From assembly GCA_001303415.1 (NCBI GenBank), contig LJTN01000032.1, positions 1 to 32,309 of the forward strand: a stretch of DNA of 32,309 nucleotides. Reading direction: 5' to 3'. Under the pieces are notes generated by a model. That model was not told the origin of the DNA. It did no database searches and saw only the letters and a program-made list of their open reading frames with translations. Source of the DNA: Myxococcales bacterium SG8_38. GTDB taxonomy: Bacteria; Myxococcota_A; Polyangia; Polyangiales; Houyiibacteriaceae. Shown piece by piece: positions 26,405 to 32,309 of the stretch (position 1 is its first letter; the number at the start of each line of letters is the position of its first letter). Position numbers and translations under genes: made by a program.

Positions 26405-27607
26405 ATGCCTTCGGTCTGTTTCTACTTCGAGGTGCACCAGCCGTACCGACTCAAGCCGTACGGAGCCCTTCAGGTAGGCCGGGACCACGAGTATTTCGAT
26501 GACGGCCTCAATGCGGAGGTGCTCCGAAAGGTCGCCAGCAAGTGCTACCTGCCCGCGAACGAGTCGATGCTTCGCCTCATCGAGAAAACCGACGGTCGTT
26601 TTTGCATCTCTTACGCGATAACTGGGGTTTCGATCGAGCAGATGAAGCGCCACGCACCGGCGGCTCTAGACAGCTTCATCCGGCTCATCAAGACCGGTGC
26701 CGTCGAGATCGTCGCGGAAACCTACTATCACAGCCTCGCCGCCCTCTACGACAAGGACGAGTATCGGGAGCAGATCGAGCTGGAGCTCGGACTGGTGAAG
26801 AAGGAGTTCGGGCAAACGCCACGTGTCTTTCGCAATACCGAGCTCATCTACAACGATGAAATCGGACGATACATCTCGGACCTCGGATTCGACGCCATTC
26901 TCGTCGAAGGTGCCGATGACATCCTCGCGTGGCGAAGCCCCAATTTCGTCTACCGCGTGCCCGGCCGCGAGACCCGCTTGCTCGCCAAGAACTACAAGCT
27001 ATCGGACGACATCGCGTTCCGCTTCTCGAACAGGGCGTGGAACGAGTTTCCGCTGACCGCGGAGAAGTTCGCACGCTGGGTGCACGGGCACAGCGGCGCA
27101 GGCGACGTGATCAACCTGTTCATGGACTACGAGACCTTCGGTGAGCACCAGTGGCGGGAAACGGGGATCTTCGATTTTCTCGAGCATCTTCCCGACCTGC
27201 TGTTCACGCACCCGCACTGGGATGTCTTGACCCCGAGCCAAGCGATCGACCGCTACCCTGCACTGGGTGATCTCAGTTTCCACCGTACGGTATCCTGGGC
27301 CGATGTAGGTCGGGACATCACCGCATGGCAAGGTAACGCGATGCAGCAACGCGCGCTTTCGGAGGTCTATGCCCTGGGCCCCGAGATCAAGCGCCGCAAC
27401 AACTCTCATTTGTTGGCGCTCTGGCGGCGTCTGCAGACCTCGGACCACTTCTACTATATGTCCACCAAGTCCTCCTCCGATGCGGAGGTCCACGATTATT
27501 TCAGCCCATATGAGGGCCCTTACGACGCTTTCATTCATTATATGAATGTGATGAAGGACCTGAAGCTCTCGGTGCTCGCGCCCAGCGAGAAACAGATCGG
27601 CCTATGA
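26405..27607 (+). CDS. GH57-family alpha-amylase or glucanotransferase
   Basis: The 400-residue protein begins with the GH57 motif FEVHQPYRLKPYG (His11). Other motifs are AETYYHSLA, FRNTELIYND with the nucleophile Glu146, and FMDYETFGEHQ with the acid/base Asp241. The C-terminal part (HLLALWRRLQTSDHFYYMSTK) is the helical segment common to the family. The enzyme acts on alpha-1,4-glucan, either hydrolysing it or transferring glucan pieces; branching activity is possible but the characteristic longer GH57 branching-enzyme layout is not obvious. It begins eight bases after the GT4 stop and its own stop overlaps the next ATG by four bases. Confidence 0.9.
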   Translation: MPSVCFYFEVHQPYRLKPYGALQVGRDHEYFDDGLNAEVLRKVASKCYLPANESMLRLIEKTDGRFCISYAITGVSIEQMKRHAPAALDSFIRLIKTGAVEIVAETYYHSLAALYDKDEYREQIELELGLVKKEFGQTPRVFRNTELIYNDEIGRYISDLGFDAILVEGADDILAWRSPNFVYRVPGRETRLLAKNYKLSDDIAFRFSNRAWNEFPLTAEKFARWVHGHSGAGDVINLFMDYETFGEHQWRETGIFDFLEHLPDLLFTHPHWDVLTPSQAIDRYPALGDLSFHRTVSWADVGRDITAWQGNAMQQRALSEVYALGPEIKRRNNSHLLALWRRLQTSDHFYYMSTKSSSDAEVHDYFSPYEGPYDAFIHYMNVMKDLKLSVLAPSEKQIGL

Positions 27608-30600
27608 GCAAGGCGGTATTCTTCGAGATTTCTTGGGAAGTCTGCAACATGGTCGGTGGTATCCACACCGTGTTGGCGAGCCGCGTCGCTGAAGTGCAGG
27701 AACGCCACGGTGAAGACGGATACATCACGATCGGGCCCGACATTCCGAGGACGGAAGGCGTGGCGGCGGAGTTCAGACCGGATCTGTGGAATCCGGAGCT
27801 CGCCGAATCCCTGAAGGACCACGAGGTGAGCGTGCTGATGGGACGCTGGCTCGTTCCGGGCGAGCCTCGCTGTCTGCTAATCAACTATTCGCGTCTCTAC
27901 CAGCGCAAGGACGAAATCCTCGGTCGCTACTGGGAGAAGCACGGGCTCGATTCTCTGTTCGGAGCCTGGGACTACTACGACCCGGTGCTTTTCGCGCACG
28001 GCGCAGGCATGATCATCGAACACATACGCGACCGATATCTGCTGCCGGGGCGGCAGAAGGCGATCGTGCAAGCCCACGAATGGATGTCGGCAGCGGCAAT
28101 CCTTCATCTTCAAGGCGCAGCCCCCGAGATCGGCACCGTATTCACCACGCACGCAACGATGCTTGGCCGCTCGCTTGCGGGGCGGCGGGCGGATCCGAAC
28201 TTCTACAAGTCGCTCGCCGACATCGACCCCGAAGTTGCGGCCAAGCAGTTGAACGTCTCGTCCAAGCACTCGATGGAAACCGTCGCAGCCCGAGAAGCAG
28301 ACGTCTTCACCACGGTGAGCGAGCTCACCGCCATCGAATGCGAGCATCTCCTCGGCCGCAAGCCGGATGTCGTCCTGCCAAACGGCTTCGGCGCGAAACC
28401 GGTCGATGCGGAAAAGAGGCAAGACGCCCGGGACGAGCTCTTCAGGCTGGCCGAGCTCACCACCGGCGACAGGTACGACCGAGAAAACACGCTGATATTC
28501 GCCCTAGCAGGCCGCTACGAGTACGTGAACAAAGGCGTGGACGTGTACCTCCACGCGGTGTCGTCCCTTGCCGCCGAGTTGGCGTCTCGGGACGGCAAGC
28601 GAGTCATCGCATATGCCATGCTTCCCGCCGGCCACGCCGAGCCCAAGCGCGCGCTGTGGGATCGTGCGCACGGCGGGTCCGCCGGTCCACCTCTACGTTG
28701 CACGCACGACCTGGTCGATGAAGCGAATGATCCGATCACCAATCAACTCAACGCGTTGGGCTTCGACAATCATCCGGGCGCCCGAGCGCACGTGGTGCAC
28801 GTGCCGATCTACCTGGACGGCACCGACCCTCTGATTCGACACAAGTACTGGGATCTGCTCCCCGGAGCCGATCTCGGCGTGTTCCCATCATTTTACGAGC
28901 CTTGGGGATACACGCCCCTCGAAGCCGTGGCGTTCGGAGTTCCCGCCATCACGACGGACCGTGCTGGCTTTGGAAGATGGGTCGCTGCACAAGGCGACCG
29001 CAAACGAACCGGGGTACGGGTGCTCCAGCGGGAAGGAGTGCCATTTACCGAGGTCGGCACTTCGCTTACCAAGGCCCTCCTCGAGTTCGTCGACCTCTCC
29101 CCCGCGGATCGAGAAACCCTAGGCCAGGCTTGTCTCGAAACCGCTGCGCTGACCGACTGGTCGAACTTCATGGACCACTACGAGGAGGCGCACGATCTCG
29201 CACTGAAGGCAGGTGCCGCACGGCGCAAAGAGCTGCCGATGGAGCGCTTGAGCACGCCGTCGATGCCGGCCGTGTCCGCCGACTCCGGGGTATTTGGGCT
29301 ATTCGTCGTGCCGCCCCCCAAAGAAGGAGAAGAACCAGCTCCGTACAGGCGCACCTTCAACGTGGCCAATGCGCTGCCCGAAGAGCTGCAGCCTTTGGAG
29401 GCGCTCGCATCCAACCTCTGGTGGCGCTGGCATCCCGAGGTCGCCTCGCTGTTCAAGCGAATCGATCCATCGCTTTGGTTCAAGCTCAAGGAGAATCCTC
29501 ACTCCTTGCTCGAGCAGGTCAAGCCAGAGCGGCTGATGGATCTGGCGATGGACAAGGAATACGCCGCCAACGTCGCGCGTGCCCATCAGGAGATGCTCGA
29601 ATCGACCCAGAAGCAGGAGCCTCGGATCGCGTACTTCTGCATGGAGTTCGGGGTTGCGGGATTCCTGAAGATCTATTCGGGCGGCTTGGGCATCCTGGCT
29701 GGGGATCACCTGAAGGCCGCAAGCGACCTCGACCTGCCTCTATGCGCGGTAGGCCTCGCGCACAAGGAAGGCTACTTCCGTCAGATGATCGATCGCGATG
29801 GTCGACAAGAGGACCTCGCCGACACCAACGATTTCGAAAGCCCGCCGTTCGAGCCCGTTATGTCGGGGCGGTACGCTCCTCTGCGGGTGACCGTACCGCT
29901 GCCCACGGGGCAGGTGCAGGTCGGCGCATGGCAACTCCGGGTCGGCCGCGTCCCGCTCTATCTGCTGGACACCAATCTCCCAGAGAATCGCCCCGAGGAT
30001 CGCGCGATCACCAATCGACTGTATGGAGGCGATGCGACGCACCGGCTTCGGCAGGAGATGATCCTCGGCCTCGGCGGCTATCAACTGCTCGCGGAGATGG
30101 ACATCGAGCCCGATGTCTACCACATGAACGAGGGACACAGCGCGTTCCTTCTCCTCGCGAGGGCGGCCCATCTCATCCAGCGGCACGGGCTGCGCTCGCA
30201 GGAAGCGTTCGAATACATCCGAAACACGACCGTCTTCACGACCCATACGCCCGTGCCCGCCGGCCACGACCACTTCCCGGAGGAGATGGTCCGGCCATAC
30301 CTTACGCGCTTCGAGAACGTCCTCCGCATGGATTGGCCACGGTTGATGGCGCTCGGGCAGTCCGCCGAAGCGGGCCCGGGCAAGTTTGGCACGACGGCGC
30401 TCGCCGTGCGGAGCTCGGAGCGCATCAATGGCGTGAGCGCCAAGCACGGTGAGGTCGCCCGGGACATGTTCCTCGACCTCTACCCGGACTTGGACGAGTC
30501 CGATGACGTGCCTTGCACCAGCATCACGAACGGCGTGCACGTCCCGACATGGGTGGCCCCTCGCTGGCAGCGGTTGTTCGAGCGCGAGATGGGGCGCGAT

Positions 30601-31857
30601 TGGCGAAATCAGATCGAAGATCGGTTCCGCTGGCAATGGCTGCGGGAGCATGATTCGGCCGAGATTTGGGCGATCCATCGGCAGCTGCGCGCCGACTACG
30701 TCGAATGGCTCAAGGAACACCTGACCGAATCGTGGGCTAGGCGCCGCGAGGATCTATCACTCCTACGCGACATCATCGATCAGCTCGACGAAGATCGGCT
30801 TTTCGTAGGGTTCGCGCGAAGGTTCGCCCCCTACAAGCGCGCCGATCTGTTGCTGAGCGAGCCTGAGCGGTTGGCCAGGATTCTCAACGGCCAGCCCGGA
30901 ATGACGATGATCTACGCGGGAAAGGCGCATCCTGCTGACGGCCTCGGCCAAGCCCTGCTGCAGAGAGTCTACCAGGCAACCAAGCACCCCGACCTGGTCG
31001 GACGGCTGATCTTCGTCGAGAACTACTCGATCGATGCGGCACGCCGCATGGTGGCTGGCTCCGACGTGTGGCTGAACACGCCGGCACGGCCGCTCGAGGC
31101 GAGCGGCACCTCCGGAATGAAAGCGGCGATGAACGGCTGCTTGAATCTCAGCGTCGATGACGGTTGGTGGCTCGAAGGGTACCAGGAAGACAACGGTTGG
31201 GTCATCGATCTTCCCTCCACGTCGGTCCACGACCCAAGCGCCTACGATCGCGCGCTGACCATGGCGCTGCTCGAAGGCGAGATCCTACCGATGTACCACG
31301 ACCGCAACGAGGCAGGCGTTCCGTTGGAATGGGTCAAACGGATGAAGGCGAGCATGGCCAGCATCATTCCCAACTTCTCGGCCCGGCGCATGGTCACCAA
31401 CTATGCAGACACCTTCTACGAGCCGGCGATGCAAGACGCGGTGGCCTTGCGCGACTCGAACTACCGTCCGCTTTTTGCATTGGCGGACTTGGTCGAGGAC
31501 ATTCGAGCGCACTGGAACACGATCGCAATGGAGAGCGTGCGGTTCGGCGGCCTGAGCGGCGACGAGATCACAGTCGGCACGACCGTTTCGGCAGAGGTCA
31601 CGCTGCATCATCCCAATCTGGACGCAAGAGAGCTCGAGGTCCAAGCGGTGGTCACGTTCGGCAGCCGGATGCAAGACCGTCCTTCGCGTTTCGTGGTGCC
31701 TTTCGAATCGGATGGCTCCAAAGATCGAAGCACTTGGCAAGGTGTGTTCGTCGTCGAAGCAAGCGGCGCGCACGAGCTCCGCTTCCGCGTCCGCCCGAAA
31801 GACCGCTCCCCTCTTCGCCCCGCCTCACTCGGCCTGCACATCCAAAAGTGGCTGTGA
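27604..31857 (+). CDS. Fusion of GT3 glycogen synthase and GT35 alpha-glucan phosphorylase
   Basis: One 1417-residue frame joins two opposing enzymes. Residues 1 to about 540 resemble eukaryote-type glycogen synthase: VFFEISWEVCNMVGGIHTVL at the start, and FYEPWGYTPLEA with Glu432 and Glu440 in the catalytic domain. A linker of about 40 residues follows (LSTPSMPAVSADSG, PPPKEGEEP). From about 580 the protein is a DUF3417-type alpha-glucan phosphorylase: NLWWRWHPEVASLF, CMEFGVAGFLKIYSGGLGIL, HMNEGHSAFL, and EASGTSGMKAAMNG with the pyridoxal-phosphate Lys1173. The last 90 residues form a beta-rich tail. The synthase adds glucose from a nucleotide sugar; the phosphorylase releases glucose-1-phosphate. 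No stop or frame change was found between the halves. Confidence 0.93.
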   Translation: MSKAVFFEISWEVCNMVGGIHTVLASRVAEVQERHGEDGYITIGPDIPRTEGVAAEFRPDLWNPELAESLKDHEVSVLMGRWLVPGEPRCLLINYSRLYQRKDEILGRYWEKHGLDSLFGAWDYYDPVLFAHGAGMIIEHIRDRYLLPGRQKAIVQAHEWMSAAAILHLQGAAPEIGTVFTTHATMLGRSLAGRRADPNFYKSLADIDPEVAAKQLNVSSKHSMETVAAREADVFTTVSELTAIECEHLLGRKPDVVLPNGFGAKPVDAEKRQDARDELFRLAELTTGDRYDRENTLIFALAGRYEYVNKGVDVYLHAVSSLAAELASRDGKRVIAYAMLPAGHAEPKRALWDRAHGGSAGPPLRCTHDLVDEANDPITNQLNALGFDNHPGARAHVVHVPIYLDGTDPLIRHKYWDLLPGADLGVFPSFYEPWGYTPLEAVAFGVPAITTDRAGFGRWVAAQGDRKRTGVRVLQREGVPFTEVGTSLTKALLEFVDLSPADRETLGQACLETAALTDWSNFMDHYEEAHDLALKAGAARRKELPMERLSTPSMPAVSADSGVFGLFVVPPPKEGEEPAPYRRTFNVANALPEELQPLEALASNLWWRWHPEVASLFKRIDPSLWFKLKENPHSLLEQVKPERLMDLAMDKEYAANVARAHQEMLESTQKQEPRIAYFCMEFGVAGFLKIYSGGLGILAGDHLKAASDLDLPLCAVGLAHKEGYFRQMIDRDGRQEDLADTNDFESPPFEPVMSGRYAPLRVTVPLPTGQVQVGAWQLRVGRVPLYLLDTNLPENRPEDRAITNRLYGGDATHRLRQEMILGLGGYQLLAEMDIEPDVYHMNEGHSAFLLLARAAHLIQRHGLRSQEAFEYIRNTTVFTTHTPVPAGHDHFPEEMVRPYLTRFENVLRMDWPRLMALGQSAEAGPGKFGTTALAVRSSERINGVSAKHGEVARDMFLDLYPDLDESDDVPCTSITNGVHVPTWVAPRWQRLFEREMGRDWRNQIEDRFRWQWLREHDSAEIWAIHRQLRADYVEWLKEHLTESWARRREDLSLLRDIIDQLDEDRLFVGFARRFAPYKRADLLLSEPERLARILNGQPGMTMIYAGKAHPADGLGQALLQRVYQATKHPDLVGRLIFVENYSIDAARRMVAGSDVWLNTPARPLEASGTSGMKAAMNGCLNLSVDDGWWLEGYQEDNGWVIDLPSTSVHDPSAYDRALTMALLEGEILPMYHDRNEAGVPLEWVKRMKASMASIIPNFSARRMVTNYADTFYEPAMQDAVALRDSNYRPLFALADLVEDIRAHWNTIAMESVRFGGLSGDEITVGTTVSAEVTLHHPNLDARELEVQAVVTFGSRMQDRPSRFVVPFESDGSKDRSTWQGVFVVEASGAHELRFRVRPKDRSPLRPASLGLHIQKWL

Positions 31858-32309
31858 CGGCGCAAGGACCGGGCTCGGAAAAACGCGACACGAGGTTCCA
31901 CGGAACGGGGCGGGCGCAAGCCGGGGCTTGGCGGAACACGACACGGGGATGTGTCGAACGGCTCGGCTTGCAAAGTTGGCCGGAAGCACAGGTGAGGTTA
32001 GGCCAAGCAAGCCTCGCCTCGGAGCTCGCGCCCAATCGGAGGTGGTTGCATGCATGCCGCTTGTCACTCGCTACGTCGCCCCATCCCCGCATCGCGTTCC
32101 GCCAAGCCCCTGCGTACGTCGACTGGCACGCAGAAGGACGAGTCGAGATGGGCCGCACACCCCATCCGCGCAACCTACAGATCCCGATCCTCGATCCGCG
32201 CACCTCAATGTCCGGAGAGGTCGACGTATGGAGGGCTCGGAAAAACGCGACATGAGGTGGAGCGGACGTGCGAAGTGCCAATCGGCATGCATGCAACCAC
32301 CTCCGATTG
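31858..32309. repeat. Non-coding region of diverged direct and inverted repeats
   Basis: These 452 bases after the glycogen operon hold no convincing gene. GGGCTCGGAAAAACGCGACA occurs at 31871-31890 and again, identical, at 32233-32252. GGGGCTTGGCGGAAC at 31923-31937 is the exact reverse complement of 32096-32110. CAAGCC-GG-GGCTTG (31917-31930) is a local hairpin. The copies share the pattern CG[CT]GTT...CCG.C.AGCCC, so all seem to be versions of one repeat family. Both strands are open over long stretches, but the predicted peptides are only the repeats translated. Confidence 0.8.
32033..32309. repeat. 277-bp inverted-repeat unit, MITE-like, running to the window edge
   Basis: The first 27 bases (32033-32059) and the last 27 (32283-32309) are perfect reverse complements; they contain the palindrome GCATGCATGC. 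Similarity continues inward at lower identity to GTCGACGTA / TACGTCGAC, giving arms of about 91 and 90 bases (32033-32123 and 32220-32309) around a 96-base centre. No transposase and no clear gene lie inside. Because the window ends exactly at the right terminus, a target-site duplication or a larger array cannot be checked. Confidence 0.7.

Follow-up and report, generated by a model that had tools for sequence, protein, structure and literature searches.

The short mobile palindromes known from bacteria are simple hairpins, and the msr-msd region of retrons has the outline of a closing stem with two hairpins. Within the myxobacteria, Nannocystis is reportedly the source of msDNA-like repeats (Lampson and Rice, 1997). 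That paper is included in the reference list of PMC6868368. REPs are described, in passages of two papers, as single hairpins of about 20–40 nt (PMC3733652, PMC8266576), and one of these texts likewise places them near gene stop codons or 3′ ends (PMC3733652); a rayt gene is depicted with its cognate REP on both sides, in two inverted copies (PMC2817692).

By analogy, the REP/RAYT system appears to be the nearest counterpart of the repeat units described here. Like REP, BIME and REPIN sequences, these units are dispersed, intergenic and palindromic, occur in alternating orientation or in divergent pairs and lie near gene 3′ ends; as in REPs, they are predicted to fold on one strand, show compensatory changes in their stems and carry a short 5′ tag at the base of the stem. 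Unlike REPs, which are single hairpins with a GTAG/GTGG head, the units are 185–190 nt long and branched, and their tag in the genus studied is mostly GGAG. We found no such repeat family described in the titles and abstract openings listed from one open-licence library.

The window, i.e. the whole stretch of DNA analysed, is an entire contig (C94, positions 1–32309) of a 3.62-Mb draft genome (G000). A 1417-residue ORF on its plus strand (27604–31857) is a synthase–phosphorylase fusion: PF05693 marks a glycogen synthase portion and PF00343 a phosphorylase portion, and DUF3417 is present as well. The glgP protein stretch is 81% identical to the closest named record found, a MAG labelled 'Deltaproteobacteria bacterium'. 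The repeat region starts at 31859, 1 base past the glgP stop codon, and continues off the contig end. A preliminary description of this DNA listed exact repeats of 27, 20 and 15 bases, all of which we recovered, each as part of a longer match. The perfect 27-base inverted repeat (32033–32059 and 32283–32309) lies within a 77-nt pair (32033–32109 and 32233–32309) that is 75% complementary; the 20-base direct repeat (31871–31890 and 32233–32252) falls within a longer repeat of 26 bases, 25 of them identical, which has a third copy (73%) at 31924–31949; and the 15-base inverted repeat (31923–31937 and 32096–32110) is a portion of a 43-nt pair (81%). A 19-base piece of the repeat, with up to two mismatches allowed, matched just its two sites in the window, and two matches were seen in 0 of 100 shuffles. 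The core 26-mer (up to three mismatches) had 57 matches in the 3.62-Mb genome, versus 0 for a reversed control pattern.

The same description took the 27-base repeat for the terminal repeat of a MITE-like unit of 277 bp. At 32309 the contig breaks off within a unit; it is the end of the assembly that makes the 27-base repeat terminal, and the feature extends beyond this position. The repeat is the P2 region of two separate units, F2 and F1, that point apart, and the 277-bp MITE has to be abandoned, whereas the dispersed, REP/BIME-like behaviour that had also been suggested was borne out in part. In the predicted fold of a unit, a closing stem (P1, 24 counted pairs) carries two arms, P2 and P3, the latter with a 4-nt bulge. 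The features of the region are as follows (R1 is the covariance model described below).

31859–31914, minus strand: 3′ fragment of an F1 unit (3′ arm of P1 and 3′ flank), matching the 3′ ends of F1 at many loci
31923–32110, minus strand: complete F2 unit of 188 nt, predicted three-way junction; R1 match at 31941–32091 on the minus strand, E 1.7e-33
about 32083–32110 (5′) and about 31923–31950 (3′), minus strand: arms of P1 of the F2 unit
32033–32063, minus strand: P2 hairpin of F2, containing the left-hand 27-base repeat and one broken P2 pair (coordinates from the sequence)
31960–32022, minus strand: P3 arm of F2 with its 4-nt bulge (coordinates from the sequence)
32111–32232: spacer separating the two divergent units
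32233–32309, plus strand: 5′ part of an F1 unit (5′ arm of P1, and P2 as far as the right-hand 27-base repeat), truncated at the contig end

The core arms are inverted pairs with nearly fixed spacing. Among the fetched loci of this genome, the pairings span exactly 185 nt in 13 of 18 F1 copies and 187–188 nt in six of eight F2 copies. F1 and F2 have a mean identity of 70% in this genome and can be aligned over their full length with units from other species; judged by these alignments, they are one family of ∼ 185–190-nt units. Divergent pairs were present in the window, at six other places in this genome (several of these pairs are cut by a contig end or have a partial partner) and at three loci in other genera (L145 and L154 in G046, L147 in G068). 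The preliminary description suspected that the frames running through the repeats mimic genes. Three window ORFs that lie over the repeats were tested and had no Pfam match, which led us to reject a gene remnant, and the conserved signal appears to be base pairing and not a reading frame.

The fold was derived from an alignment (A1) of 51 units from 17 genomes. It includes 13 of the 18 F1 and five of the eight F2 extractions from this genome (deleted, F3-interrupted, doubly matched and contig-edge copies were omitted) and 33 of 41 further rows (eight were dropped, two each for runs of N, duplication, partial matches and weak secondary matches). RNAalifold predicted 58 pairs, 32 of which had changed on both sides. 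Pair counting gave 97.5% paired cells versus 85.3% after shuffling, and the covariation score was 0.366 as compared with 0.141 for shuffled alignments and 0.047–0.084 when the partners were slid by 1–3 columns. None of 500 shuffles equalled any of the five measures, a count that is not a probability because the shuffles ignore relatedness; these controls also lean towards the fold, since the structure comes from the same sequence-based alignment. Folding of single sequences from other genera is more independent of A1 than the shuffles are, and 15 such stretches mostly produced the same three arms, with a weaker P1 in one G041 copy (L153). A search of the window region against Rfam release 15 returned no family at its gathering score; there were four sub-threshold matches, the best being to a plant microRNA precursor family (29.8 bits versus a cut-off of 168), which we read as an effect of the long hairpin. 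Eight unit-bearing loci gave nothing in Rfam at E up to 0.5. What is new here is a conserved branched one-strand fold that occurs across an order and has no Rfam family above threshold.

The pairing is asymmetric with respect to strand. On the unit strand, A1 contains 201 G.T versus 13 A.C cells, and a structure predicted without G.U still has 37 versus 8; for 49 of the 51 units, folding of this strand has the lower predicted energy. The excess of G.T over A.C on one strand suggests that the units probably function as a single folded strand of either RNA or single-stranded DNA. In REPs, the frequency of G.T pairs has been argued, in a passage of PMC3733652, to be a sign of transcription. For the units, strand-specific folding fits RNA as well as single-stranded DNA.

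We see about an even chance that the unit family is a non-autonomous mobile repeat working as a folded single strand. The strong covariation, the conserved core, the one-strand G.T pairs and the preservation of the fold across genera would equally be expected of a structured putative non-coding RNA that has an RNA-level function and was multiplied by ordinary DNA rearrangement. Such an RNA could, for example, be transcribed from the 5′ spacer towards the 3′ end of the neighbour and act in antisense or in 3′-end stability, and the 3′ ends of the units are indeed often near the stop codons of genes on the opposite strand. We regard this explanation as possible but on balance rather unlikely, given the distribution of the units among species and the make-up of their neighbourhoods, described below.

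Gene positions near the units were obtained with a codon-usage script trained on seven ORFs of the window. In the genus set (39 units), the neighbour on the 3′ side had its stop codon facing the unit in 27 of 37 cases, at a median distance of 64 bp, and its start in the other 10; in the other-genus set (24 units), the corresponding figures were 14 of 20 (median 31 bp) and six of 20. Median distances to the 5′-side neighbour were 226–438 bp. Convergent neighbours surrounded 15 of the 27 genus units that had both. Adjacency to stop codons and this share of convergent pairs are what one would expect if the units were long hairpins kept as bidirectional terminators or as protectors of gene 3′ ends and spread passively. 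A terminator, however, would need neither a three-way junction nor conserved P2 and P3 sequences nor a strand preference, and congeneric glgP loci manage without a unit, so that we consider this explanation very improbable. We scanned 92 of 93 neighbouring ORFs (the one overlapping a unit was left out) for a shared partner gene; of the 144 Pfam families found, none had more than three members among the 25 commonest listed, and this lack of a common neighbour family speaks against the RNA-level function as well.

P1 has a sharply defined A|G...C|G foot. An A precedes P1 in 45 of 51 genus and 17 of 19 other-genus units, the first base of P1 is G in 46/51 and 19/19, respectively, and the base following P1 is G in 44/51 and 18/19; some of the exceptions arise because the extension of P1 was halted at an internal mismatch. 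The head tag in the genus is GGAG in 25 of 51 units and GTAG in two, and all five G020 copies tested have GTAG, one of them one base inside the P1 limit. Outside the genus, the sequence of P1 itself is much less constant: within five other genomes, the 5′ arms of different copies share 39–62% of positions on average. In 32-base arm segments, which take in some flank beyond P1, most copies nevertheless pair at 18–28 of 32 positions (L153 at 14). The arm comparison and the foot count each used 19 other-genus matches, with L153 in the arm set and L149 in the foot set. Outside the genus, then, the P1 arms at the outer ends of the units differ strongly from copy to copy and it is the core fold that persists; recognition by a sequence-specific transposase would call for the reverse.

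Analysis of the phylogenetic distribution was based on model R1 (150 positions, 43 pairs), which was built on 39 of the 51 A1 units. Units were found in at least 18 of 19 congeneric genomes, with 0 to at least 41 copies per genome, in line with the dispersed intergenic family of the preliminary description and far from a single-copy sequence. The search of the order gave matches (E ≤ 0.01) in at least 26 of 183 genomes. At least eight of these genomes lie outside the genus, and in three of the eight (G039, G070 and G071) all matches were weak, with best E values of 3.8e-8 to 6.2e-6. In a phylum-wide draw of 377 genomes, at least 10 had R1 matches, all of them in this order among the matches listed. 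The fragment 31859–32309 had no match in a plasmid collection, and one exact repeat pattern had none in viral contigs. Nine contigs of G000 (C12, C39, C42, C57, C62, C83, C94, C96 and C99) have a repeat match within 45 bases of an end; it is thus probable that units interrupt the assembly and that the copy numbers are too low.

Copies appear to have multiplied within genomes. Of 47 copies, 72% had their nearest relative in the same genome, compared with a shuffled mean of 14% and a shuffled maximum of 38%; with this genome excluded, the figure was 55% of 29 copies. Presence and absence between species were compared at one locus, glgP, where the site could be read across the stop codon in seven congeneric orthologues. 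Only that of G009 had a unit (1/7), and a profile search of the seven loci likewise found a unit in G009 alone; by eye, the spacers of G007 and G002 are longer, with other sequence, and those of G001, G003, G004 and G005 are short. At a site equivalent to the window repeats (L053, ∼ 4548 in JAFDAJ010000030.1), glgP runs into the end of a convergent CBS-type gene with neither a stop codon nor a spacer, a junction left either by a deletion or by collapse of the assembly. In two genomes with few copies, G016 and G018, the copies sit between different ORFs, so that no shared parental locus was seen, and a parental single-copy RNA gene in these genomes was rejected. A range from 0 to at least 41 copies among congeneric species, the lack of units in G008 among the matches listed and presence or absence at one and the same site all count against an RNA-level function. 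Taken together, the sequence comparisons demonstrate a predicted one-strand three-way junction, intergenic scatter, species-variable number and a site that is filled or empty depending on the species.

In this genome, several F1 units are embedded in composites of 292–532 bp with near-perfect 23-base inverted ends (CCCCGGAGGACGGGTCGCGACGG and its complement), which bound five of the 12 stretches examined on both sides. Their flanks show no clear target duplication and are themselves repetitive. Within the composites, a second palindromic module lies upstream of the F1 unit, and a third module (TAGGCGCTAGCG...) breaks into some units; both the nesting of modules and the alternating orientation of core copies had been pointed out in the preliminary description. 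Several further details were observed at individual loci. The composites L030 (1787–2291), L033 (530–891) and L036 (1778–2239) have the near-perfect inverted ends CCCCGGAG(G/A)ACGGGTCGCGACGG. The second palindromic module has a conserved inner GGGCAGCACAG motif, an altered form of which occurs at the G007 and G009 glgP sites. In L030, L036, L042 and L029, the linker between the upstream module and the unit contains arrays of the degenerate hexamer CAGYGR, and another palindromic module (TAGGCGCTAGCGTGGGGG...) is nested in units or arms at L022 (∼ 11709), L042, L045 and L046.

The family shares features with MITEs: the units are non-autonomous, multi-copy and intergenic, and some of them are enclosed by near-perfect inverted ends. 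A classical MITE would have these ends as the terminal inverted repeats recognized by a DDE transposase, with the three-way junction as cargo. In contrast to MITEs, however, it is the inner fold of the units that is conserved, whereas the outer arms vary between copies outside the genus. The window copies and other F2–F1 pairs have no composite ends beside F2, and other genera share the fold, yet their P1 arms and flanks differ. In spite of the ends on both sides of those five stretches, we therefore find a classical MITE quite improbable.

If the units are mobilized as folded single strands, the enzyme would have to be supplied in trans. The preliminary description suggested looking for a cognate transposase with similar ends, but none sharing the ends of the units was seen among the Y1 loci and neighbouring genes. 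Six RAYT-like loci of 2.0–3.3 kb each contained no unit, and the three examined have their own inverted repeats of 39–68 nt; these RAYTs were rejected as the cognate enzyme because their loci lack units and their inverted ends differ. The arrangement thus departs from that of a REPtron, in that the RAYT-like genes are not flanked by units and have other inverted repeats. RAYT-like stretches of 109 residues scored 37–39 bits against REP_Tyr_transpos (cut-off 80), and the RAYT-like gene of this genome is a weak candidate for the mobilizing enzyme. At L122 (1350–2198, contig C101 of this genome), the RAYT-like Y1 gene is accompanied by its own 67-nt, 78% inverted repeat (CTAGGGGACACTCTCC...). In G009 (L107), ends that by eye resemble those of L122 bracket the three-way-junction unit next to glgP. 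RAYT loci carrying GGGTCNGACCC palindromes were sought in 16 loci, and none was found. Unit copy number did not differ significantly between genomes of the genus with and without a Y1_Tnp gene (p 0.15), and outside the genus Y1_Tnp was present in 4/8 unit-bearing versus 69/156 other genomes (p 1.0); both comparisons involve incomplete genomes.

Reverse transcription was considered as well, in the form of retron-like (msr-msd) copies such as those proposed for Nannocystis. Both sets of sequences are repeated and structured, the unit outline is similar to that of msr-msd, and a myxobacterial chromosome provides a reported precedent. Unlike retrons, the units occur in a genus without a general reverse transcriptase: RVT_1 (PF00078) was found in two of the 19 congeneric genomes and not in the other 17, which include this one, while units are found in at least 18; several of the 19 genomes are incomplete. 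A reverse transcriptase was accordingly largely rejected as the general partner, and a retron-like origin is extremely unlikely.

A non-autonomous mobile repeat acting as a folded strand might spread as follows. When the unit strand becomes single, during replication or as a transcript, it would fold, and the folded unit with its sharply defined A|G...C|G foot would be recognized by a trans-acting enzyme. This enzyme would insert new copies, of which those directly behind stop codons would persist, presumably because they do the least harm there. Divergent pairs, such as that in the window, would correspond to REPINs on a larger scale. More tentatively, and we doubt it more than we believe it, the units may represent a new class of mobile elements in which selection acts on a branched strand (RNA or single-stranded DNA) with a three-way-junction core, copy-variable closing stems with complementary arms and the A|G...C|G foot. 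Such elements would spread in trans, in a SINE-like manner, behind genes through the order, by means of an enzyme outside the known partners of REPs, MITEs and retrons.

Contig breaks and false short ORFs in these genomes would be explained by the units, and a covariance model like R1 could be used to mask or annotate the copies. Compensatory changes that keep a ∼ 190-nt branched fold in many copies and species would mean that a complex single-strand shape, and not sequence, can determine mobility or an RNA function carried along with it.
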